Assembly (NCBI RefSeq): GCF_026586625.1
Contig: NZ_JAODIW010000010.1
Coordinates: forward strand, 62,001-126,000
Origin: Halobium salinum
GTDB lineage: Archaea; Halobacteriota; Halobacteria; Halobacteriales; Haloferacaceae
Direction: 5' to 3'
Length of the DNA: 64,000 nucleotides
Part shown: positions 2,312 to 46,303 of the stretch, piece by piece
How the letters are laid out: every line of letters begins with the position of its first letter
Numbering within the stretch: position 1 is the first letter of the stretch
Notes under the pieces: model-generated
What the model was told of the DNA's origin: nothing
The model's database searches: none
The model's input: the letters and a program-made list of their open reading frames with translations, nothing else
Made by a program: the position numbers and the translations under genes

Positions 2312-5300
2312 TTAATCGGTCCCTCGAAGGCTCCCTCGCTCCCCGAACAGCACTTCGAGGAGTGTGCGCTCGCTCGCCCGGATGTGACGGTTCACGGTCG
2401 GCTGGGTGACCCCCAACATCTCGGCGACGTCCTGACCGTTCTTCTCGCGGGGCCACTCGAAGAATCCGGCGTAGTAGGCTGTTCGGAGCACCTCCTCCTG
2501 CCGGTCCGTGAGTCGGTCTCGCACACCGTCTTCGAACTCCCGCCGAGACATGACGGATTCGTCGAGTTCCCGGCGAGCGAGTAACGTCACGTCGCCGAAC
2601 GCGTCCTCGAAGTACGTGATGAACCCTCGAACGTCGGTGCTCGTCGGCACCCTGACGGTGACGGTCGCCCGTCGGTCCGACACGTCGACCGTGTCGAGCA
2701 GCGCACCGCGCTCCAACAGGTCCGAGACGACGGCCGACTCCCCGACGGTGCACTCGAACAGACAGCCGTCGTCGGTCTCGGAGATTACGTCGACTCGTTC
2801 GACGGCCGTCGACGCTTCCGCTTCCCGCCTGACGGTCTCCGCGTCGACCCCCGACGCGCGGAAGAAGAGGTGGGTGAACCCGTCCGTCCGGTGGACGGTG
2901 TTCTCGAGGGTGAAGCGTCCGGCCGTCCCCGTGAGGAACCCGAACAGCGGCGTCTCCGTGGTGGGAACGTCGAACCGCAGTTCGGTACTTCGCTCGCCGA
3001 CGAGCGCCCGCTTCCGGTCGAGGGCGTTCATCGCGTAGCCGATAGTCTCGCCCAGTTCGGCGAGCACCGCGGTCTCCATCGGGTCGAACACGTCCGGCGT
3101 GTCGGCGTACAGAGTCAACACGCCGTGGAGCGTGTCGCGGTACCGAATCGGGACGGTGACACAGGAGCGAAAGCCTCTGGAGAGCGCCGCTTCGCGCCAC
3201 GGCTCGAACGCCGCGGCCGACAGGATGTCGGGTTGGACTTGCGGTTCGCCGGTCTCGACGGCGCGCGCGGCGGGGCCGACGCGTGCCGCGTCGTCGAGCG
3301 GGATGGTGACGTCGTCGAGGTAGCCCGCCCCGGCGCCCGCGCTCGCGGCCGGTTCGACGGCCTTCGCCGCTCGGTCGACGTGACCCACCCAGGCGAACGT
3401 GTACGGCTCGATGTCGACCAGCCGCTCGCACACCCCCCGCTCGATGGCCTCGTGGGAGTCGGCCCCGAGGAGCACGCCCGTGATATCCCGGATGGCACGG
3501 TTGACCCGATTCAGCCGGTCGAGTCGCTCGTTCTTCTCGGCGAGGTCGTCCCGGTGGGCCCGGAGGTCGCTCTCCCTGGCCGCGCGGTCGAGAGCCGCCC
3601 GGGCCGTCGCCCCCAGAACCTCGACGAGCCGCCAGTCGGCGTCGTCGAACTCGTCCGATTCGGGGTCGACGGCGACGAAGACGCCGTGGGAGCCGAGCGA
3701 GCGGACGACGGCGCTCCCGCTCCCGCCGCCGAGGTCGACGACGGTCGACTCGTCGCGGATGAACGCCTCCCAGACGGGGCTCTCGCCGACGGGACCGAGC
3801 AGGGGGTCGTCGACCACCGTCGAGAGCCCCTCCGTCGCGGCGCCGACTTCGAGCCCGCTCCCCGAACCGCTGTCGACCGCGACGTAGGCATATGGTGCGT
3901 CCAGCACCTCGGTTGCCGCCTCGACGACGGTGCGGTGGACGGCCTCGACGGTCTCCGCCTCCGGGAGCTGCCGCGCCCAGGCGGTGAGCGACTCGAGGCG
4001 GGTCGCGCGCTTCCTGACCGCGGTGGTCTCCTCGAACATCCCCACGGCGTAGCGCTCGCCGTCGGACATGACGAACGTCGACCCCCGGAACGCTATCCAC
4101 TTTCGTCGCCCGTCGGGGTATCTGAGCTCGAGTTCGCTGGTCGTCACCGGTTCCTCCGTCTCGAGGGTCCGTCGGAGCGGGTGGTTCTCGCCGGTGACCG
4201 GCTCGCCCTCGTGGTAGATGCGGTACTCCGGGCGGACGTCCGGGAACCGCTCGACGTCGGCCTCTGACACCTCCAGTAGCTCCATCGCCCGGTCGTTCAT
4301 CTGGACGACGGCCATCTCCTCGTCGACGACGACGATGCCGGTCCGCGCGTTCTCGACGACGCTCCGGTTGAGACTGCGCTCGTACTCGAGGCGTTCCTCG
4401 GCGCGTTTCCGGTCGGTGACGTCGCGGAAGTACACCGACAATCCGGTGTCCGAGGGGTACGCGTTCACCTCGAACCAGGTTTCGAGCGGTGGGTAGTACG
4501 CCTCGAACGTGACCGGCTCCTGTGTCTCCATCGCGCGTTCGTACTCGCGCTGGAACGCCGTGTCGACGGCCGCCTCGAAGGTGTCCCACACGGACTCGCC
4601 GAGCAGTTCGGACTCGTCGGCCTCGAGCAGTCGTTCGGCCCGGTCGTTGACGAACGTGAACCGCCACTCCTCGTCCAGCGCGAAGAACGCGTCGGTGATT
4701 CGTTCGAGAACGGCTTCCAACTCCGCTTCGAGCCGGTCGCGTTCGCGCACGTCGCGGACGACGCCCACCCGCCCGTACTCGCCGTTCTCGAGGGGGAAGC
4801 GCGTCACCCGCGCCTCTATCGGGACGGTCCCGCCGTCTCGGGTCGGGAGGTCGGTCCGGAGGGTGACCGCCTCCTCCGTCCCGTCGGCGAGGTCACGTCG
4901 CATCCGGTCGATATCCGCCGCCATCGCCGCTCCGGTCACCGTCTCCGCGTGGGCGCCCAACAGCTCCTCCCGGCTGTACCCGGTCAGGTCGAGGTACGCC
5001 TCGTTGACGGCGACGAACCGGTCGTCGGCGTCGAGGGCGTAGACGCCGTCGCCGACGGTCGCCATCATGGCCTCGTATCGGCGGAGTTCGGCGTCCCGCT
5101 CCGTGCGGTCGGCCGCCGTCGCCTCGGCGGACTGGCTGGTCGTCGGAGGGCCGGGAGGCTCCGCAGGCGTCTCGGTCTCCTCGAGGCGCCCGGTCGCTCC
5201 GTCCACCTCCGTCTCGCCTCGTGCGCCGGATTCCTCCCGAGCGTCCGTCGCCGCGTCGGGTTCGAGCCCCAGTCGGTTACGGAGCGTCCGAGCGAGCACG

Positions 5301-5722
5301 CCGACGCTGGCGGCGTTCTTCCGCTGGACGAACTCCACCGCCGACGTCCCGACCACCGCGTCGGTCGTCGGATCCGACCACGGCCCGAACAGCACCGTGG
5401 GAACGTCCGGCCCGGCCGTCAGCGCGCTCGTCCACTCCCGTCCGACCGCCGCGTCGGCACCGAACTCGACGACGACGGCGCCGACGTCACCGGGAGGGAC
5501 TTCGCTGCCGCCGTCGGTGCCCGCATCGTCGTCCCCGTTCCCGTCGGTGTCGCTACCGACGCCATCGAGCAGTTCGCGGACGCGCTCGGGGGTCGCCCGG
5601 TCGACGACGACGCGCTCGACGAGCGCCGGTCCGAGCGCCGACTCGAGTCGAGCGACCGTCGACCTGTCCGAGTCGACGCTCGCGCTCTCGACGACGTAGA
5701 TGATGTAAATTTCCGATGACAT
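2312..5722 (-). CDS. Bat-like PAS/GAF sensor with HTH-10 DNA-binding domain
   Basis: A 1136-aa cytoplasmic signal-responsive transcriptional regulator of the bacterio-opsin activator (Bat) type. In order it shows a degenerate receiver-like N-terminal domain (about 1-150; no recognisable phosphoacceptor Asp); an acidic linker; three PAS domains (about 215-330, 335-450, 450-570, for example GDGVYALDADDRFVAVNEAY); two GAF domains (about 585-730 and 755-900); a BAT domain (about 915-1075); and a C-terminal HTH-10 ([22 protein letters not shown], interrupted here only by my quoting, then a recognition helix LGVTQPTVNRHI). There is no membrane segment or histidine kinase domain, so signals (redox, light or a ligand) probably act directly on PAS/GAF. 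It is flanked on the same strand by two HalOD1 modules. Its target genes cannot be inferred. Confidence 0.9.
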   Translation of the reverse strand: MSSEIYIIYVVESASVDSDRSTVARLESALGPALVERVVVDRATPERVRELLDGVGSDTDGNGDDDAGTDGGSEVPPGDVGAVVVEFGADAAVGREWTSALTAGPDVPTVLFGPWSDPTTDAVVGTSAVEFVQRKNAASVGVLARTLRNRLGLEPDAATDAREESGARGETEVDGATGRLEETETPAEPPGPPTTSQSAEATAADRTERDAELRRYEAMMATVGDGVYALDADDRFVAVNEAYLDLTGYSREELLGAHAETVTGAAMAADIDRMRRDLADGTEEAVTLRTDLPTRDGGTVPIEARVTRFPLENGEYGRVGVVRDVRERDRLEAELEAVLERITDAFFALDEEWRFTFVNDRAERLLEADESELLGESVWDTFEAAVDTAFQREYERAMETQEPVTFEAYYPPLETWFEVNAYPSDTGLSVYFRDVTDRKRAEERLEYERSLNRSVVENARTGIVVVDEEMAVVQMNDRAMELLEVSEADVERFPDVRPEYRIYHEGEPVTGENHPLRRTLETEEPVTTSELELRYPDGRRKWIAFRGSTFVMSDGERYAVGMFEETTAVRKRATRLESLTAWARQLPEAETVEAVHRTVVEAATEVLDAPYAYVAVDSGSGSGLEVGAATEGLSTVVDDPLLGPVGESPVWEAFIRDESTVVDLGGGSGSAVVRSLGSHGVFVAVDPESDEFDDADWRLVEVLGATARAALDRAARESDLRAHRDDLAEKNERLDRLNRVNRAIRDITGVLLGADSHEAIERGVCERLVDIEPYTFAWVGHVDRAAKAVEPAASAGAGAGYLDDVTIPLDDAARVGPAARAVETGEPQVQPDILSAAAFEPWREAALSRGFRSCVTVPIRYRDTLHGVLTLYADTPDVFDPMETAVLAELGETIGYAMNALDRKRALVGERSTELRFDVPTTETPLFGFLTGTAGRFTLENTVHRTDGFTHLFFRASGVDAETVRREAEASTAVERVDVISETDDGCLFECTVGESAVVSDLLERGALLDTVDVSDRRATVTVRVPTSTDVRGFITYFEDAFGDVTLLARRELDESVMSRREFEDGVRDRLTDRQEEVLRTAYYAGFFEWPREKNGQDVAEMLGVTQPTVNRHIRASERTLLEVLFGERGSLRGTD

Positions 5723-15230: not shown

Positions 15231-15274
15231 TTCCACCACCCGTCGTGTCGCCGCGAGATGTCGAATCCCGGGGC

Positions 15275-15280
15275 TTAAGT
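15275..15280 (+). promoter_or_regulatory. TATA-like element of the TFS gene
   Basis: The core cttaagt lies about 28-33 bases before the ATG at 15308, which supports leaderless transcription from that start. Confidence 0.5.
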
Positions 15281-15307
15281 ACTAAAACGGCCATACCCCA
15301 TCCTACC

Positions 15308-15628
15308 ATGCAATTCTGCGACGAGTGCGGTTCGATGATGAAGACGGAGGGCGACAAGTGGGTCTGTGGGAGCTGTGGCCACGAGACGATTCGCGACGAG
15401 GCGAAGGAGGCCGCGATGGTCACGACGCAGGGCCAGGAGCAGTCCGAAATCATCGACGTGAGCGACGCCGAGGACACCGGCCTGCCGACGACCAACGCCC
15501 AGTGTCCGAGCTGTGACAACGACCGTGCCTACTGGTACATGCAACAGATTCGCTCGGCCGACGAGTCCGAGACGCGCTTTTTCGTCTGTACCGAGTGCGA
15601 GCACAAGTGGCGCGAAGACGACCACTGA
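15308..15628 (+). CDS. Transcription factor S (TFS, RPB9/TFIIS-like)
   Basis: A 106-aa RNA polymerase cleavage/elongation factor. It has an N-terminal zinc ribbon (CDECGSMMKTEGDKWVCGSC) at about residues 4-23. The C-terminal zinc ribbon has CPSC (about 69-72) and CTEC (about 97-100). The catalytic loop of TFS, RSADESETRF, is present at about 85-94 and contains the acidic pair that induces transcript cleavage in stalled polymerase. The ATG at 15308 is chosen over longer readings because it gives the family start MQFCDECG and a correctly placed TATA element. Confidence 0.93.
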   Translation: MQFCDECGSMMKTEGDKWVCGSCGHETIRDEAKEAAMVTTQGQEQSEIIDVSDAEDTGLPTTNAQCPSCDNDRAYWYMQQIRSADESETRFFVCTECEHKWREDDH

Positions 15629-15698
15629 ACCGACGGGCGCGTAGTCCACCCCCGTGAGACGGCCACGACTCCGTCCGCGACACGAAATTGACATATCC

Positions 15699-16286
15699 GT
15701 GACACACACCCCGACGGTCGCCACCGACCGCCTCGACGGCTGGCGGCTCGTCGAGCGGTCCGAGGACACGCCCTTCGACGTTCGATTCCTGCGGGTCGTG
15801 AGTCACACCGCCGTGTACGAGGACGCCGCGCTCCGTGAGACGCTCTCCGAACGGGCCGGCCTCGACGGCCAGTGGCGCTTCTTTCTCACGAGCCGACTCC
15901 GCCTGCTACCGTCGCCGCCGGGTTCGGCGGCGCTCTCGCGGCTGGTCGCCGGCCGCGCCACCGACGCCTTCGAGCGCCGACTCCAGGAGCGCGGGTTCGA
16001 ACGGGTCGCTCGCGCCGACGCCCGGCCGTTCCGACGGGGCGACGGGACCGAGGCGCGGCTCACCCGCTTCGCCGCCCGCTGCCCCGTCGCGGGGCTCGAC
16101 CTCGACGTGGAGGCGTGGCTCGCGGTGTGGGACGGCGACGCAGACGGGGAGTTCCTCGTCGCCGGCGGCGCGTACCCTCGCCGGGTCGTCTCGAGCGAGT
16201 CGACGGTCGCGGCCGAGGTGGAGTCCCAGTTCGACCCCGGCCGCTTCAAGCGTGAGCTGTTCGACCTCGTCCGGGCGGTCGAGTGA
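15699..16286 (+). CDS. Haloarchaeal conserved hypothetical protein
   Basis: A 195-aa soluble protein starting, in the reading chosen, at a GTG (THTPTVATDRLDGWRLVERS). A GTG at 15654 would add 15 Arg-rich residues. It contains FDVRFLRVVSHTAVYEDAAL, a region RFFLTSRLRLLPSPPGSAAL, a long helix ERRLQERGFERVARADAR, and two strand-rich stretches near the C terminus (EAWLAVWDGDADGEFLVAGG). I recognise no catalytic motif. It follows transcription factor S by 70 bases and may share its transcript. Confidence 0.55.
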   Translation: MTHTPTVATDRLDGWRLVERSEDTPFDVRFLRVVSHTAVYEDAALRETLSERAGLDGQWRFFLTSRLRLLPSPPGSAALSRLVAGRATDAFERRLQERGFERVARADARPFRRGDGTEARLTRFAARCPVAGLDLDVEAWLAVWDGDADGEFLVAGGAYPRRVVSSESTVAAEVESQFDPGRFKRELFDLVRAVE

Positions 16287-16355: not shown

Positions 16356-16718
16356 CTACTCCCGGCTTCGGAGGAGAAGCGCCGAGAGGACGGCGACGGG
16401 GTCCAACTCGGCCGGAGCGACGCCCAGCGCGCGGGAGAGGACTCCCGGCGTCGCCCCGACACCGAGCGTCGCGAGCGTTCGTCCGCGGGCGCGGACCAGG
16501 ACGGTCACGTCCGCGGCGTCGAGACCGCCGGCCACCGACTCGAAGGCGAGTGGGAGCGCCCGGCCGGCGCGGAGTAGCGCGAACGCGGCGCGAACCGACG
16601 GCGCCGTGACGACGACGAGGTCGCCGTCGGCACGGACCCGGAGGTCGGCGCCAGCGACCGTCACGTCGAGGTCAGCGTGTACGTCGAGCGGTCGGCGCTC
16701 GCGCTCCGGGGTGCTCAC
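16356..16718 (-). CDS. Protein B of duplicated unknown module (copy 1)
   Basis: A 120-aa protein of unknown function. It opens with a short polar leader and then alternating strands: VHADLDVTVAGADLRVRADG, DLVVVTAPSVRAAFALLRAG, a second strand pair DVTVLVRARGRTLATLGVG, and a C-terminal helix pair (GVLSRALGVAP, LDPVAVLSALLLR). The GTG at 16718 overlaps the stop of gene A (16715-16939) by four bases, so the two are coupled. Its homologue at 17108-17470 shares DLVVV, SRALG and the same order of elements. The fold looks like a small beta-sandwich or a membrane-surface protein; no family is recognised. Confidence 0.7.
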   Translation of the reverse strand: MSTPERERRPLDVHADLDVTVAGADLRVRADGDLVVVTAPSVRAAFALLRAGRALPLAFESVAGGLDAADVTVLVRARGRTLATLGVGATPGVLSRALGVAPAELDPVAVLSALLLRSRE

Positions 16719-16939
16719 TTCCGGTCGCGAGTGTGGATGGTCAACGACCCGTTGACGCGCCAGTGGGCGTGTTCTGCGTCCTCGCCGGCCTTGCTCGGCA
16801 CGTCGACCTCCATGTTCTCGAACTCGTAGGTTATCTCGGCGCCGCGGCCGGTCAGTCGGTCGTACAGGCCGATGGCGAGGTCCGGCCACGTGCGGGTCTC
16901 GTCCATCGATTCGGTGTGGGTCTTGGCGTCAGTTGCCAT
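16715..16939 (-). CDS. Protein A of duplicated unknown module (copy 1)
   Basis: A 74-aa acidic protein, MATDAKTHTESMDETRT followed by the core WPDLAIGLYDRLTGRGAEI, then YEFENMEVDVPSKAGEDAEH and WRVNGSLTIHTR. About 40 of 55 core residues are identical to the 72-aa protein at 17538-17756. The strands alternate like a beta-rich domain preceded by one amphipathic helix. A TATA-like agtatatc lies about 28 bases upstream on the minus strand (16965-16973). It starts the coupled pair A-B. Function is unknown; the tight conservation of the RLTGRGAEI segment suggests a binding surface. Confidence 0.75.
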   Translation of the reverse strand: MATDAKTHTESMDETRTWPDLAIGLYDRLTGRGAEITYEFENMEVDVPSKAGEDAEHAHWRVNGSLTIHTRDRK

Positions 16940-16962
16940 GGTAGCTACGTAGCACCGTGACG

Positions 16963-16973
16963 AGATATACTTT
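16963..16973 (-). promoter_or_regulatory. TATA box of module copy 1
   Basis: On the minus strand this reads agtatatctc, centred about 28 bases before the ATG at 16939. Confidence 0.55.
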
Positions 16974-17107
16974 CCACAATAGACGAATTTGCAAGAAAAT
17001 CTCGGCGACGGACCCGTCCGGGCGGGTGGAGATTCCGGTGCGGGCGCCGGCCGTTTCGACGTGGGGGTCCGGCCGAGGTCCGGTGAAAACGGCGACGACG
17101 GGACGCC

Positions 17108-17470
17108 CTATCGACCGCGGCGGAGTCGGTCGACGCCGGCCAGCACCACGCCGCCGAGGCTCACCTTCGCGGGGGTCGCACCGAGGGCACGGGAGACGAC
17201 GCCGCTCTCGACGCCGGGGCCCAGACGGGCGACGCTCCCGCCGTCGACGCGGACGTCGACGGTGAGGTCGCCGCGGTCGAGCGCCGCGCCGAAGGGGGTG
17301 AGTAGCTGTCGCCCGCCGCGGACCATCGTCGCGGCGGTCCGGAAGTCGGGCGCGTCGACGACGACGAGGTCGCCGTAACCGCGAACCTGCACGGGGCTGC
17401 CGGCGACCGTGAGGGTCAGGTCGGCGTCGACCGCGAGCGGGCGTCCTGACGAGGTGGCCGTGGGGCTCAT
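17108..17470 (-). CDS. Protein B of duplicated unknown module (copy 2)
   Basis: A 120-aa protein homologous to the one at 16356-16718. Matching blocks are DADLTLTVAGSPVQVRGYGD, DLVVVDAPDFRTAATMVRGG, LTVDVRVDGGSVARLG and VVSRALGATPAKVSLGG. It is the same length as copy 1 although the sequence has diverged more than in the A partner. It is 67 bases downstream of its A gene, whereas copy 1 overlaps by four, so the spacing changed after duplication. Function is unknown. Confidence 0.7.
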   Translation of the reverse strand: MSPTATSSGRPLAVDADLTLTVAGSPVQVRGYGDLVVVDAPDFRTAATMVRGGRQLLTPFGAALDRGDLTVDVRVDGGSVARLGPGVESGVVSRALGATPAKVSLGGVVLAGVDRLRRGR

Positions 17471-17537
17471 CGCAGGTCCTCGGAGAGCGCTCGCCCCGTG
17501 TGAGACGAGGGTCTCGGTACGGCTACGACGAGTCCCA

Positions 17538-17756
17538 TCACTCCTCGTCCGGCTCTCGGGTCCGGATACGGACGGTCCCGTCGACGCCCCACTCGGCGTG
17601 GTTCGCGTCCTCGCCGGCGTGGCTCGGCACCGACACCTGCATGTCCTCGAACTCGTACTCGATTTCGGCGCCGCGGCCGGTCAGTCGCTCGTACAGGCCG
17701 ATGGCGAGGTCCGGCCAGTTCTTGGTCTCCTCGACGTCGGGGTTGTCTACGCTCAT
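17538..17756 (-). CDS. Protein A of duplicated unknown module (copy 2)
   Basis: A 72-aa protein with the core WPDLAIGLYERLTGRGAEI, YEFEDMQVSVPSHAGEDANH and WGVDGTVRIRTR, clearly a paralogue of 16715-16939. The C terminus is an acidic EPDEE tail in place of DRK. A TATA-like ctaagtc lies about 28 bases upstream on the minus strand (17782-17788). Each copy therefore has its own promoter. Function is unknown. Confidence 0.75.
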   Translation of the reverse strand: MSVDNPDVEETKNWPDLAIGLYERLTGRGAEIEYEFEDMQVSVPSHAGEDANHAEWGVDGTVRIRTREPDEE

Positions 17757-18005
17757 GCGAACTCGGCTAGGGAGTGTCCCGACTTAGCCCTTCTCGCCGA
17801 AAGTTGAAGACCACGAACGAAAGCGGCAAAGTGAGAAACGGGCGTCTACTGCCTGGCCCATACAGTTAAGACAACACAGTCCTACACCGTGTCTCCGCAC
17901 TGCAGGGCAGGTGAGAGCGACGGCCGGTCGGGGCCGACCGGGAGCAATCAGAGCCGAGACGAATAGGGGCGACTCGGCGCGAACGCAACGTGACGAGGCG
18001 GCGGG

Positions 18006-18830
18006 TCACCGGTTCCGAGCGAACGTGAGGTAGCCCGTGTGGCCGACGCCGGCGGTGGAGGGACGGGTCCCGCGCGAGCCCACGTCGAGGGTGCGCTGGA
18101 TGGTCTCGAACGTCTCCACGTCGTCGAGGTCGGCCTCGCGGGCCGCCTCGACTGACGCGCGGCTGTTCTCGACGAACGGGGAGTAGACGGCGAGGAACCC
18201 GCCGGAGGCGAGCAGGTCGGGTGCGCGGGCGACGACCGCCGGCGCGTTCTCCGTGTCGAGGGTGAGGAGGTCGAACCCGGCCTCGCTGTCGGCGAGGTCG
18301 CCCATCTCGTCGGTGAGGTCGCCGGTGCGCACGTCGACGCGGTCCTCGACACCCGCAAGTTCCATGTTCTCGCGGGCCACGTCGGCGAACTCGGCGTCGC
18401 GCTCGTACGTCGTCACGCGGGCGCCGATGCGCCCGAGGTACGCGGAGAGCACGCCCGTGCCGGTACCGGCGTCGAGGACGCGGTCGCCCGCGGCGGCGCC
18501 GGTGTGGCCGACTATCAGCCCGACGTCGCGGGGCATCATCGGCGCACCGGTGCGCTCGAAGTGGTTGAACAGGTCCGGACCGCGGGGTTTGCGGACGACG
18601 AACTCGTCGCCGAGGTGAGTCTCCAGTACGTCGCCGGCCGCGGCGTCCTCGGGCACCTCCAGCACGCCGAGGTCGGTGTGGAGTTCCTCGCCCGGCGCGC
18701 GGAGGTACTCGCGGTCGCCGTGGACCAGCAGATACTGGGCGGGTCGACCCGACGACTCGCCGTCGTCGAGCGGTTCGTCGGTGGCGGGGTCGCCGTCGTC
18801 GACCTCGGCGGCCGGCGCGTCCTCGCTCAC
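18006..18830 (-). CDS. trmI: tRNA (adenine-N1)-methyltransferase TrmI
   Basis: A 274-aa SAM-dependent methyltransferase predicted to make 1-methyladenosine in the T-loop of tRNA (positions 57/58 in archaea). After an acidic 30-residue leader there is a small beta-domain (YLLVHGDREYLRAPGEE) and the family start RTGAPMMPRDVGLIVGHTG. SAM motif I is VLDAGTGTGVLSAYLG (about residues 119-134), with DLLTLDTENAP in motif IV. The GTG start is four bases after the NAC stop, so NAC and TrmI form an operon, an arrangement I have seen described for archaea. Confidence 0.9.
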   Translation of the reverse strand: MSEDAPAAEVDDGDPATDEPLDDGESSGRPAQYLLVHGDREYLRAPGEELHTDLGVLEVPEDAAAGDVLETHLGDEFVVRKPRGPDLFNHFERTGAPMMPRDVGLIVGHTGAAAGDRVLDAGTGTGVLSAYLGRIGARVTTYERDAEFADVARENMELAGVEDRVDVRTGDLTDEMGDLADSEAGFDLLTLDTENAPAVVARAPDLLASGGFLAVYSPFVENSRASVEAAREADLDDVETFETIQRTLDVGSRGTRPSTAGVGHTGYLTFARNR

Positions 18831-18834
18831 TCGA

Positions 18835-19245
18835 CTACTCCAGCCGCGAGACGGCGGCCGCGAGGTCGCCGTCCTCGGCCTCCAGCGCCTCCCGGGCCTC
18901 GCTCTCGCTGGCGCCGGTGCGCTGGGCGACGATTTTCACGTCGGAGTCGGGGATGTCGACGCCGCCGGCGGCGTCGCGAACCTCCGCCTCCGAGCCGGCC
19001 GTCTCCTCGGCCTCGGCGGCGGCGCCCGCTCCCGCGCCGCGTTCGCGGCTCTGGGGCTCGCCGACAATCTGGTAGGTCTCCTGACCCTGGGCGTCCATCT
19101 TGGTCACTTGCGCGTCCGAGAAGTACAGCTCCTCGTCGGCCGTGCGGATGATGACCTCCTCGGCGTCGATTTCGTCGACGTCGATGCCCATCTGTTTCAT
19201 CATCTGCTTCATCTTCCGTGGGTTCATGCCGCCTCCTCCGAACAT
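18835..19245 (-). CDS. nac: Nascent polypeptide-associated complex protein (archaeal NAC)
   Basis: A 136-aa ribosome-associated chaperone that binds nascent chains as a homodimer. The N terminus is the family start [20 protein letters not shown], followed by the NAC domain ([20 protein letters not shown], then YQIVGEP; about 30-65). An acidic Ala/Glu linker leads to a C-terminal UBA domain ([20 protein letters not shown], then [19 protein letters not shown]). The ATG at 19245 is set by the family start and by a cttttt TATA-like element on the minus strand at about 19269-19276. Confidence 0.95.
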
Positions 19246-41985: not shown

Positions 41986-44900
41986 ATGAACGAAGCCCTG
42001 ACGGTCGCACTACTCCTCGTAGTGGCCACGCTCGCCAACGTGGGAGTCGCGACCCCGACGAACGAAGCACCCCTGGTCGACGCCGGACTCGACCAGACGG
42101 TCGAACGGAACACGAGAATCGCACTCGACGGGACCGGAACCCGAGACCCGGACGGGGACGTCGTCTCGTATCAATGGTCAATCGAGACGCCTGCCGGGAC
42201 GGCCACCACCCCGACGGACGCCACTGACCCGCAGACGTCCTTCACACCCACCGAACTCGGCCGATACGCGGTGACGCTCACCGCGACCGACGACGACGGT
42301 CGGGAGCGGAGCGACACTCTCTACGTCGACGTCGTTCGAGGAGACGCACCGACGGTGGCGGTGTCGGGTCCGGCTCGGTCTACCGTCGGTACCACCGAAA
42401 CCTATCGCGCAAACGTGTCACGAGGCAGCGCACCGCTCCGCCGTATCGTTTGGCAGGTCGACGGTCGGACCGTCGCACGGCGCACTGTCGCCGACGGGGG
42501 CGACGGCACGGTATCAGTCTCCTTTGTGACGCCCGGTCCGCACGATGTCACCGCGACGGTCGTCGACGACGACGGCCTCAACGCCACGGACGCCGTGTCG
42601 GTTCGTGCGGAGCGGGCTTCCCCCGTCGGGCCGAGTGGGGGGGCGACCGGAAGTCAGCCGACGGTCGCCGACCGGCAGAGCCCGACCGTCCGCGGACCGA
42701 AGCTCCTCACCGGTACTGCACCGTTCGATTCGACGTACCGCCTCTCGGGCGGCGGTGACGCAGTGCAGACGGTTCGGTGGGTCACCGACCGCACGCTCGC
42801 CTCCCGAGGAAAGAGCGCCACGGTGTCGTGGCGGCCGGGGGACCACGACATCCACGCAATCGTCAGGTACGAGGATGGCTCACGAGACGTGGCGCAGTTC
42901 GCCGACGGGTCGACGGGCGTGACCGTCGACCCCGCTCCGACGGTGGAGATTCCGGCACTCACCGGGCGCAACGGTCTCTCCGGGCGCGGGCTCGCGAGCG
43001 ACAGCTACGGAAACCTCCGCTCTCTGGATGTCTCGGTCGACGGTCGGACCGTGAAACGCTGGCCCGAACAGACCGTCGGGTCGCGTGGAGAACAGGCAAC
43101 GGAGCGGACGGTCCGGTTCGCGGTTCCGGGAGCCCAAGTGAACCGAAACCACACGGTCGTCGTGACCGCGGTCGACGGCCGCGGACAGCGCGTGAAGGTG
43201 TCGCGCGAAGTCCCCGTCTCCGGAACGCCCGAAGTCGTCAGAGCCGAGTTCGTCAACGGGCCAGTCGATTCGTATCACGAGCGGCTCGATCCCGAGCGAT
43301 ACGCGGCTAAGCACGTGCTGGAGATCGATTTGAATGGGGTTCCGAAGGAGAACATAGATTGGCTGCACGCGGTAAAAAAATCTGATAAAGTAAGGAAGAT
43401 GAACACAGGTGGTTACCAGCCATCTGCTGATTATTATAGACCAAATGATACTCTGGTAGTTAGGTCGTACTGGATGAGTCCTCAGCCACTAGAATCTAAT
43501 CTCAAAACCTACGTATCTAGCAAAAGCGCATGGAGTGTGATTCAGGAGAGCAGTATAGATGTTCAGAATAGTCCTCCTGTGCTCAGACTAGACGTTAGAC
43601 CCGAGAAACAGAAACACTACGCGATGGCGTGGGACGTAGTTGTAGACGCCAGTGACTCCTTCGACCCTGATGGCGATCGAGTGGAATACATCTGGAAGCA
43701 TGGTGCCACACCGACCAGTGGGGACAACACTACTGCGCGGTTCAGCATGGTTCGCAATGCCTCGCTGGTTCTCAGAGATGGAGAGGGGCACGCCACACGA
43801 AAGCCGTTTAGTTATCTCGATTACATTGTCCCCCCGATCAAACAGGTAGAAGTAGTGAGCGAGGGGCCTTACCGACCCAACGATACGGTACGTGTTGCCG
43901 TTGAAACGAGAAAATACCGCCTCAGTAAGAATAGTTACAAGCTGAATTTGGAGCTCGGAATAGAAGAAACAGAGGCAGATATCGTCGAATGGAACCGGCA
44001 TCAGACGAATCCCGAGAGCATTCAGGAGGTTCGTCAATGGACAGGGGTCATCGAGGTTCCCGCCTCAGAGTTCCTGAAGAACGATCAGAAGCGAGTCAGC
44101 GTGTTCAACGATGTTCGGCCCGAAGACGCGAACGAGGCGGAGATACCCGACGTAACGGTAGTGAATGGGGTACGCAAGAAGTACGACGGCGTCTTTGCGG
44201 AGAACGTCCGATACGTCGTCGAGAAGCCAATCATCCACAAAGAGCAGGTCACATCACAGTACGCGCGTGATCGCTATCTCCGTCGAGGTTACTCGGTCAC
44301 GAACAAGGAGACGGCTCGAGAGTACGTAGCGAAGGAGCGCGTGAAAATCGAAGAAGCCGAGCGTGAGACCCGGTCTAGAGGCTTTTCGACCGCGTCAATG
44401 CGACGGCTGTTCTTACAGTCGAACGACGAGTGGCAAACCGGGGGTATCGACACTCAGACGGTTGCGGAGACCGTCCACGAAACCGAGTGGAGGAGTTCAA
44501 GAGGTGGGAGAGGGACGTTCACCGGCGAAATGAGACGTGTGAAGACACAGTCGGCGAACTATCGAACGAAGAAGCAGTTCGAGTACACACGGGAGATCGA
44601 ACACACCGGGACACGAGAGGTCACGTACTGGGATACTGTGACCAGAACGGAGACGTACACGAAGGACATCACGACGTGTTTGCCGTACGGCTGTTTCGAG
44701 ACGACTCGGACGTTCACCCGGACCGAGAGGGATCGCGTCCGGCGTAGCTACACAGACACATACACCTACACTACCGCCGAGACCGAGACGTACTGGTCGT
44801 TCAGCAAGTACGCCCCGAATCACGACTTCACCGGTCACTCTCGTCAGGTGAAGGTGCGGGACGCGCGATACGAGACACAGTACGAGTTCGGGTACGATCG

Positions 44901-45357
44901 GACGGTCCAACGAAGCGTTCGAACCTACCACGCGACTCGGCAAGTCGTGGTCGAACCTGCGCGCTACGAGTGGCAGGTGGATCGCACGTTCGACGACGCT
45001 GCAAGTGCGTATTCGTACAGCCAGCGAAATCGGGCACAGATAGAGCAACAGACCGTGGTGAACGCGTGGACTGTCGAGAAGCAGACTGGTACGTCGAAAG
45101 AAATATCAAGCACATCTCGGGACTGGAACAATGTGGTCGAGACACGTGCCGACGTCCTCGGACAAGTGAGCGTCGTGGGGACGAATCCGGAGACCGGTGA
45201 GGAGCGAGTGGTCAGTCAGAGATTCTTCGACAAATCAGTGTCCGTTCAGGGTGTAGCGACGAAATCCGAGTTGGCTGATTCGGTAGTTGGAGAGCAGAGC
45301 GAGAGATGCGAGGGTGTAGCGTCGGAATACCAGCAGGAGTGTTCAACCGTTGTATAG
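41986..45357 (+). CDS. Large PKD-domain surface protein
   Basis: A 1123-aa predicted secreted protein. A hydrophobic signal segment (about 6-22) is followed by a PKD domain with DPDGDVVSYQWSI (about 54-66) and RYAVTLTATDDDG, a second PKD-like domain (about 122-210), and a third near 540-615 (SFDPDGDRVEYIW). The C-terminal half is rich in Tyr, Thr, Arg and Glu, with a TTCLPYGCFETT Cys pair. There is an internal repeat: FTGEMRRVKTQSANYRTKKQ at about 845 and FTGHSRQVKVRDARYETQYE at about 948. It has no transmembrane anchor. From about base 43310 the DNA is markedly more AT-rich than before. It overlaps the next gene by eight bases. Confidence 0.75.
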   Translation: MNEALTVALLLVVATLANVGVATPTNEAPLVDAGLDQTVERNTRIALDGTGTRDPDGDVVSYQWSIETPAGTATTPTDATDPQTSFTPTELGRYAVTLTATDDDGRERSDTLYVDVVRGDAPTVAVSGPARSTVGTTETYRANVSRGSAPLRRIVWQVDGRTVARRTVADGGDGTVSVSFVTPGPHDVTATVVDDDGLNATDAVSVRAERASPVGPSGGATGSQPTVADRQSPTVRGPKLLTGTAPFDSTYRLSGGGDAVQTVRWVTDRTLASRGKSATVSWRPGDHDIHAIVRYEDGSRDVAQFADGSTGVTVDPAPTVEIPALTGRNGLSGRGLASDSYGNLRSLDVSVDGRTVKRWPEQTVGSRGEQATERTVRFAVPGAQVNRNHTVVVTAVDGRGQRVKVSREVPVSGTPEVVRAEFVNGPVDSYHERLDPERYAAKHVLEIDLNGVPKENIDWLHAVKKSDKVRKMNTGGYQPSADYYRPNDTLVVRSYWMSPQPLESNLKTYVSSKSAWSVIQESSIDVQNSPPVLRLDVRPEKQKHYAMAWDVVVDASDSFDPDGDRVEYIWKHGATPTSGDNTTARFSMVRNASLVLRDGEGHATRKPFSYLDYIVPPIKQVEVVSEGPYRPNDTVRVAVETRKYRLSKNSYKLNLELGIEETEADIVEWNRHQTNPESIQEVRQWTGVIEVPASEFLKNDQKRVSVFNDVRPEDANEAEIPDVTVVNGVRKKYDGVFAENVRYVVEKPIIHKEQVTSQYARDRYLRRGYSVTNKETAREYVAKERVKIEEAERETRSRGFSTASMRRLFLQSNDEWQTGGIDTQTVAETVHETEWRSSRGGRGTFTGEMRRVKTQSANYRTKKQFEYTREIEHTGTREVTYWDTVTRTETYTKDITTCLPYGCFETTRTFTRTERDRVRRSYTDTYTYTTAETETYWSFSKYAPNHDFTGHSRQVKVRDARYETQYEFGYDRTVQRSVRTYHATRQVVVEPARYEWQVDRTFDDAASAYSYSQRNRAQIEQQTVVNAWTVEKQTGTSKEISSTSRDWNNVVETRADVLGQVSVVGTNPETGEERVVSQRFFDKSVSVQGVATKSELADSVVGEQSERCEGVASEYQQECSTVV

Positions 45358-46303
45358 AAGATTAGCATACAAGTCACTCCTCCCAGTTCTAATTGTGGCG
45401 ATGATGATTGTCGGCGGTGCTGCCGGCACTGGTGATATATCCAAAAATGAATATGGTGAACGACAAATAAATTCGTTTGAAGGTATAGAATATACCCTTT
45501 CTTACGACCGGCACGGAAAAATCCGCGTGACTGCACAGAATAGCGAGAGTAAAACCATCACCAGTGGCTTCTCAATATGGGTCGATAACGAGGAGCTCAC
45601 TGAACAGGAATTCGCCATTTCCCCTGGAGATGTGGAGAGATGGTCGTTCAATACGAGCCGAGGCTTTGACGTCACCAAAGACGAGCACACCGTCGATTTC
45701 TCGACCTTCGGGAACTCGACCAGCTACAACATCACCCGAGACATAGAGACCGCGGACGCCGAAGCCTACCCGACACCCTACATCGGGAACGTCACTGTAA
45801 CCGAGGGCACCGTCGACGGGGAGACCTCGTCCGTAGCGAAGGTGGAGATCGTCAACCCCGGCCCACAGACGTACGGAATGAAGCTCTTGGTGAACACCGA
45901 GGGCACGGACGGGAGCTTCTACGCCGTCGGAATCCCATCGTATTCGAGCGAGACCTTCACCGTCGAGCTACTGGAACCCGTCGGCGACAAGATTGCGGGT
46001 GAAGGACGCCTCTACACCGAGCGACCGAGGGACACGGAAGGAGCTCTCGATCAAGTCGAATTCGTCGGCTCGCCGGACTCGAAAACGAAGCAGTGGAACA
46101 CTTCTTACGAACCGGCGAGGGGGCCGTGGCTCGACAATTCCTACGAGTACGAGAACGAGTCCATCGACACAGACATGGACAACCGCGAGAACGCCAACCC
46201 GTTCGACGACCCGGACCGACGAAAAGAGGTGAACGCTATCGCCCTCACCCTCGTCGCCCTCTTTGGCGTGCTCGCCTACAGGAAGCTCAATCGTTCTTCT
46301 TGA
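45350..46303 (+). CDS. Membrane-anchored extracellular partner protein
   Basis: A 317-aa protein with an N-terminal signal segment (LLPVLIVAMMIVGGAAG, about 10-26), an extracellular beta-rich body (residues 30-280; YTLSYDRHGKIRVTAQN, FSIWVDNEELTEQEF), an acidic Glu/Asp stretch and a C-terminal anchor AIALTLVALFGVLAYRKLNR. The start is a TTG at 45350 overlapping the stop of the PKD gene. The first third of the gene is AT-rich, the rest is GC-rich. Its anchor and coupling suggest it holds the PKD protein at the cell surface. Confidence 0.75.
   Translation: MYRRLAYKSLLPVLIVAMMIVGGAAGTGDISKNEYGERQINSFEGIEYTLSYDRHGKIRVTAQNSESKTITSGFSIWVDNEELTEQEFAISPGDVERWSFNTSRGFDVTKDEHTVDFSTFGNSTSYNITRDIETADAEAYPTPYIGNVTVTEGTVDGETSSVAKVEIVNPGPQTYGMKLLVNTEGTDGSFYAVGIPSYSSETFTVELLEPVGDKIAGEGRLYTERPRDTEGALDQVEFVGSPDSKTKQWNTSYEPARGPWLDNSYEYENESIDTDMDNRENANPFDDPDRRKEVNAIALTLVALFGVLAYRKLNRSS

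Follow-up and report, generated by a model that had tools for sequence, protein, structure and literature searches.

A tandemly doubled haloarchaeal two-gene unit belongs to a small protein pair shared by archaea and bacteria, with redox and light-related genes among its bacterial neighbours

We analysed a window of 64,000 nucleotides, that is, the whole stretch of a Halobium salinum contig (G000:C2, haloarchaeal chromosome) above. Read along the minus strand, the genes NAC, a trmI-like tRNA methyltransferase, A2, B2, A1 and B1 follow one another (Table 1). The preliminary description had proposed a tandem duplication of a two-gene module, and all four open reading frames were recovered on the minus strand where they had been placed. 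The two A proteins are alike (alignment score 236; best of 1000 shuffles, 47), and the B proteins are alike while having diverged more (score 210; best of 1000 shuffles, 79), as had been stated. The genes of copy 1 do overlap, A1 and B1 sharing 4 nt (ATGA), and a gap of 67 nt separates A2 from B2. For B1 the start was kept at 16718 as in the preliminary description, and the list of open reading frames gives a longer frame with an upstream GTG. A third, weak A-like gene, absent from the preliminary description, lies on contig C13 of the same genome. Elsewhere in the window, positions 41986-46303 are poor in GC (falling to 56%, compared with about 70%) and contain a 1123-aa open reading frame, by its sequence like a large repetitive surface protein, as well as a 317-aa open reading frame with a hydrophobic segment at its end.

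Table 1. Features of the doubled A-B unit and its flanks in the window
Feature	Position	Strand	Basis
Transcription factor S (TFS), conserved downstream neighbour	15245..15628	+	TIGR01384; synteny
DUF6517-like gene, conserved on the downstream side and convergent with B1	15654..16286	+	Sub-threshold Pfam match (E 8e-4); synteny
B1, extra B copy, 120 aa	16356..16718	-	Frame within a longer ORF from an upstream GTG; 53/108 residues identical to B2
A1, extra A copy, 74 aa	16715..16939	-	ORF; 42/61 aligned residues identical to A2
TATATC, TATA-like element some 30 nt upstream of the A1 ATG	16964..16969	-	Upstream sequence; position read by eye
B2, fast-evolving partner, 120 aa	17108..17470	-	ORF; B profile matches; AlphaFold2 mean pLDDT 80.7
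A2, conserved protein, 72 aa	17538..17756	-	ORF; adjoins the trmI-like gene as in relatives L145-L147; groups with five g5 relatives (SH-aLRT 87)
GGGCTAAGTC, weak TATA-like element of A2	17781..17790	-	Resembles CACTAAGTC in five relatives; located by eye
trmI-like tRNA methyltransferase (Pfam GCD14), conserved haloarchaeal upstream neighbour of the pair	18006..18830	-	Pfam; synteny
NAC, nascent polypeptide-associated complex protein, conserved neighbour	18835..19212	-	NCBIfam and synteny; start chosen by the analyst

Each copy had been credited with a TATA element of its own, which holds clearly for copy 1 with its TATATC and weakly for copy 2, where only the weak GGGCTAAGTC is present. Across 77 haloarchaeal A genes, A+T content peaks at -27 to -34. 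The five nearest relatives (genus g5) have CACTAAGTC at a similar place upstream of A. The element of copy 2 is thus of the ancestral type, and that of copy 1 differs from it.

No known family was recognised for either protein at the outset, and wider searches in Pfam, NCBIfam and the PDB agree, so that the duplicated module stands as one of proteins outside these collections. The window copies of A and B had no Pfam or NCBIfam match above the curated cut-offs, and PDB sequence profiles returned nothing credible for either. When 65 A or A-prime proteins (A-prime being a second A-like family, described below) and 77 B proteins were compared singly with Pfam, in a scan that shows no cut-offs, scattered matches of one or two members appeared, the best at E 0.14 for A and 0.001 for B. 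Matches to adrenodoxin, CyaGox and Csy4 (E 0.08-0.5) were taken as chance. A and B show no recognisable homology to each other (hhalign probability 0.4%). A is predicted to have about 70 residues forming a helix followed by two strands, in a poor model (pLDDT 64.0), and a fold search with this low-confidence model gave a best Z of 2.5 (4xo2_B, rmsd 4.4, 49 aligned). B, with about 110-120 residues, is predicted to fold as beta-beta-beta-alpha-beta-beta-alpha in a fairly good model; its fold search gave no clear match (best Foldseek E 0.17; best VIA Z 4.8, to 5cuk, rmsd 3.8, 66 aligned), and the matches at Z 3-5 (PscP, histidine racemase, pilotins and others) were not used as evidence. Literature searches on LitR and photolyase, DUF2867, DUF2867 with photolyase, haloarchaeal small proteins and HVO_0870, presumably the Haloferax locus of the unit, yielded nothing on A or B.

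We further compared the occurrence of the two genes. A was found in 167 of 391 genomes of the class. Two sets of 40 genomes, A-positive and A-negative, were thinned by hand from a random sample, and B occurred in 39/40 of the former and 1/40 of the latter. Wherever the places of both were listed (34/34 genomes), B came after A in the same orientation, the matched stretches lying 0-72 nt apart, and start/stop overlaps of the two genes are frequent in both domains. Independent occurrence of the two genes or a match to a known family would have spoken against the preliminary description, and neither was seen. The one A-negative genome with B (G058) carries it directly after a trmI-like gene, with no A seen there (L153, about 5.2-5.6 kb), which looks like a secondary loss of A with B kept; the one A-positive genome with no B match (G184) has a weak A match (E 2.7e-13). 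Among 100 loci around A, the B profile matched in 94. The six others comprise the A-like gene on C13 (L003), a haloarchaeal locus whose A has no start codon (L046) and four bacterial loci (L045, L047, L051 and L068) that nevertheless have a B-like in-frame open reading frame after A. Such a frame follows A in all 12 bacterial loci examined for it, these four and eight planctomycete loci, eight of them at E < 0.01 and four marginal at 0.04-0.65 (L134, 0.04; L051 and L143, one and the same place, 0.058 each; L135, 0.65). These results indicate that A and B are very probably obligate partners. Two irregular B matches were seen as well: in Halobaculum litoreum (L049, about 4999-5607) B is split over two frames by a frameshift or sequencing error, and in a member of Bryobacteraceae a weak B-like frame away from A (L120, 6890-7192, minus strand, G394:C18; E 4e-6) has a TGA inside the matched stretch and adjoins a peptidase-like gene.

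Copy number in relatives was checked as well. An A-B-A-B array occurs only in the window among the 100 loci, the two B matches of L049 being two frames of one stretch, and relatives carry a single pair at the same place after NAC and the trmI-like gene. In three of them (G022, G019 and G100) the pair lies between a trmI-like gene and DUF6517-like and TFS genes, as in the window. The duplication is therefore local and, among these loci, confined to this genome. The A2-B2 pair next to trmI grouped with the g5 relatives (SH-aLRT 87), and copy 1 was placed nearby without support. A tree uniting the two copies could not be rejected (p-AU 0.44), and uniting them with the g5 relatives as well raised the likelihood by 3.2 units (p-AU 0.605). 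These observations are most simply explained by tandem duplication in this lineage, with copy 1, and B1 above all, changing faster; copy 2 is the positional ortholog, its A2 corresponding to the single A gene of the relatives, and copy 1 is the extra. Horizontal gain of copy 1 had been considered because A1 resembles the A of other families more than it does A2, and these tree tests gave it no support. Gene conversion between A1 and A2, considered for the 54/57 identical bases of the helix, is unneeded, since a planctomycete A is identical to A1 at 53/57 bases there. The dN and dS values of the copies (A, 0.245 and 0.341; B, 0.463 and 0.819) were left unused, as GC bias compresses dS.

A named genome collection contained relatives of A at 68 loci, of which 19 are in records with bacterial names. 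The bacterial carriers include Gemmatimonadota, Bacteroidetes (L039, represented by one bin whose assignment may be wrong), Krumholzibacteriota, Eisenbacteria, Acidobacteria (including Bryobacteraceae), Planctomycetes, Verrucomicrobia (Haloferula, which we take to belong there), Pseudomonadota and deltaproteobacterial lineages, so that A is sporadic in at least eight bacterial phyla. It is rare in the bacterial groups that were surveyed: counting the centre genomes, A occurred in 1/293 genomes of the order of Chromatocurvus and in 2/247, 3/200, 10/246 and 2/47 genomes of the phyla of G402, G391, G396 and G405, respectively. Chromatocurvus halotolerans is one bacterium that carries the pair. 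In a joint A+B tree, a single branch (SH-aLRT 96) split 77 haloarchaeal rows, both window copies among them, from 17 bacterial rows, and transfer between the domains, if there was any, was therefore not recent. A proteins average 75% identity within haloarchaea and about 57% across domains, compared with 35% and 22% for B. Twelve A residues never vary among 43 sequences drawn from the two domains; the two window copies, which belong to this set, keep all 12, and the A helix is near-invariant as WPxLAIxLYDRLTGRxAxI.

Haloarchaea also contain a second A-like family, A-prime, which frequently completes an A-B-A-prime set as its third member. It stands just after B in seven loci (L009, L018, L019, L020, L027, L032 and L036) and about 3.4 kb further on in two (L022 and L034), and the window genome has a copy at G000:C13:158873-159055 (L121). 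In an alignment over both families, A and A-prime have invariant P, W and G residues in common, whereas A-prime is only 21-31% identical to A2, lacks the RLTGR motif and in most proteins bears a C-terminal PLADW-type tail.

We then focused on the genes beside A in 31 separate bacterial loci (the 19 of the named collection, L117-L119, L134-L142 and L144; L143 repeats L051, and L120 was left out as it is not around A). The gene caller used yields false frames in GC-rich DNA, and only genes confirmed by profile, phmmer or Pfam were used, the neighbours at representative loci being identified from Pfam. Since the flanks are of unequal length, the neighbour counts are lower bounds, and some loci are kin: L057 and L061-L064 form one close lineage, and L058/L060 and L038/L055 are close pairs. 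The commonest neighbour is an NAD(P)-binding NmrA-like short-chain dehydrogenase/reductase (SDR) with a C-terminal DUF2867 region (PF05368/PF13460 plus PF11066), which adjoins the pair and is no homolog of it, present in at least 13/31 loci (L039, L045, L051, L058, L060, L067, L117, L134-L138 and L140). A photolyase or photolyase-related protein (DPRP) occurred in at least 5/31 (L038, L045, L055, L117 and L144), an amine-oxidase-type FAD enzyme in at least 4/31 (L038, L040, L055 and L070), and a MerR regulator with a B12-binding domain (L040 and L067) and CIA30 (L038 and L040) in at least 2/31 each. At least one of these five was seen in 18/31 loci and none in 13/31, among which are all five loci of the lineage of L057 and L061-L064. 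Across 30 bacterial genomes with A there are 30 DUF2867 genes, at least one in each of 26 genomes, and an NmrA/DUF2867 gene lies less than 3 kb from A in 13 of the 30 genomes (ten by computed distance; G392, G394 and G401 from loci L039, L045 and L058), against 0.04 expected (Poisson P 2e-28) on a model that treats genomes as independent, which the related planctomycetes are not. This genome-wide count settles the link between the SDR and A in bacteria. Literature searches on the DUF2867 SDR found no function for it. In the deltaproteobacterial lineage of L057 and L061-L064, most A-B pairs are flanked by a fatty-acid desaturase and an aldo/keto reductase, and the three genomes checked (G400, G403 and G404) have no DUF2867 gene.

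Some bacterial loci resemble the light-inducible photolyase clusters governed by LitR/CarH in gene types, having in common with them a MerR regulator with B12-binding domain, a photolyase, a short-chain dehydrogenase and an FAD oxidoreductase (PMC9758184). The genes described for the LitR-type pmlR1 region of Pseudomonas mendocina include phrB together with genes for a short-chain dehydrogenase and an FAD oxidoreductase, and by name no AB-like pair is among them (PMC9758184). The likeness is one of gene types. Most AB loci, in contrast to such clusters, lack the regulator, and the haloarchaeal pairs lie outside any cluster of this kind; for the former reason we do not claim membership.

As the likeliest function we tentatively propose that A and B form an accessory pair assisting NAD(P)- or flavin-dependent enzymes in countering light or oxidative damage, with more confidence for the bacterial clusters that hold a photolyase and a B12-type regulator and less for haloarchaea. 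A bolder version, which is possible but doubtful, would make the pair an undescribed two-protein component of the response to light damage common to archaea and bacteria, acting with an NmrA/DUF2867-type or other NAD(P)/flavin enzyme in chemistry beyond that of DNA photolyases, with the helix of A as the shared docking or active surface. Rather unlikely, in our estimate, is a redox or cofactor accessory role (flavin, NAD(P)H, quinone or lipid chemistry) with no specificity for light, in which the bacterial photolyase neighbours would be bystanders. The prominence of the NmrA/DUF2867 SDR is consistent with it, as are further bacterial neighbours such as aldo/keto reductase, ferric reductase, fatty acid desaturase and polyprenyl synthase, but the clustering of photolyase-type, MerR-B12, FAD oxidase and CIA30 genes at L038, L040, L045, L055, L067, L117 and L144 argues for a tie to light.

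The haloarchaeal neighbourhoods are of another composition. None of the 80 haloarchaeal genomes tested has a DUF2867 protein, which means that the archaeal partner enzyme must differ from the bacterial one, and no photolyase-type gene was matched in the window. DPRP lies within 5 kb of A in 2/49 haloarchaeal loci (L036 and L041), and an NmrA-type SDR directly follows B in L024. DPRP occurred in 31/40 haloarchaea with A against 14/40 without (nominal p 0.0003); as the difference vanished without family f4 (31/39 vs 14/23, p 0.14), it was not used as evidence. The order NAC-trmI-A-B could instead speak for a part in translation or RNA metabolism, the pair being a haloarchaeal appendix of the NAC-trmI operon that aids nascent chains or tRNA modification, and the retention of B alone after trmI in G058 would fit. 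A trmI-like gene, with NAC near it, stands near A in 13/49 haloarchaeal loci (flanks of up to 5 kb) and in 5/8 further relatives, yet the neighbourhood is not constant, since the fetched flanks of the other 36 loci have no trmI-like gene. Set also against this unlikely alternative are the TATA-like element that A has to itself in most haloarchaea and the redox and light genes that make up the Pfam-checked bacterial neighbours (trmI and NAC were outside that check). A toxin-antitoxin or other selfish addiction pair, which the small size, overlapping genes, tandem copy and sporadic bacterial occurrence might call to mind, is very improbable given the conserved chromosomal synteny, the lack of signs of mobility (72,556 plasmid records contained no match to A, and viral contigs gave no relative that could be confirmed) and the conservation of A across domains, which is unusually strong for a toxin or antitoxin.

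Under the proposed accessory role in light or oxidative damage, A and B would be two subunits of one small protein machine encoded by one two-gene unit, probably co-transcribed and forming a complex, with A as the conserved working or interface part and B as its fast-changing partner. The complex may serve as accessory or adaptor to NAD(P)- or flavin-dependent enzymes that handle such damage. In haloarchaea the unit, often located after NAC-trmI, has a TATA-like element to itself. Copy 2 in the window retains the ancestral place and promoter type, and copy 1, diverged most in B, may serve another condition or another partner.

Overall, the AB module reaches beyond haloarchaea, and its tandem doubling is its least interesting part. 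A protein of about 70 residues that is still about 57% identical between haloarchaea and bacteria, and nearly always accompanied by a fast-changing partner, must do something specific, and it is conserved across domains yet covered by no family model among those searched. The bacterial neighbourhoods offer a testable pointer to light or redox damage, and the duplicated copy found here amounts to a natural experiment on the difference that partner B makes.
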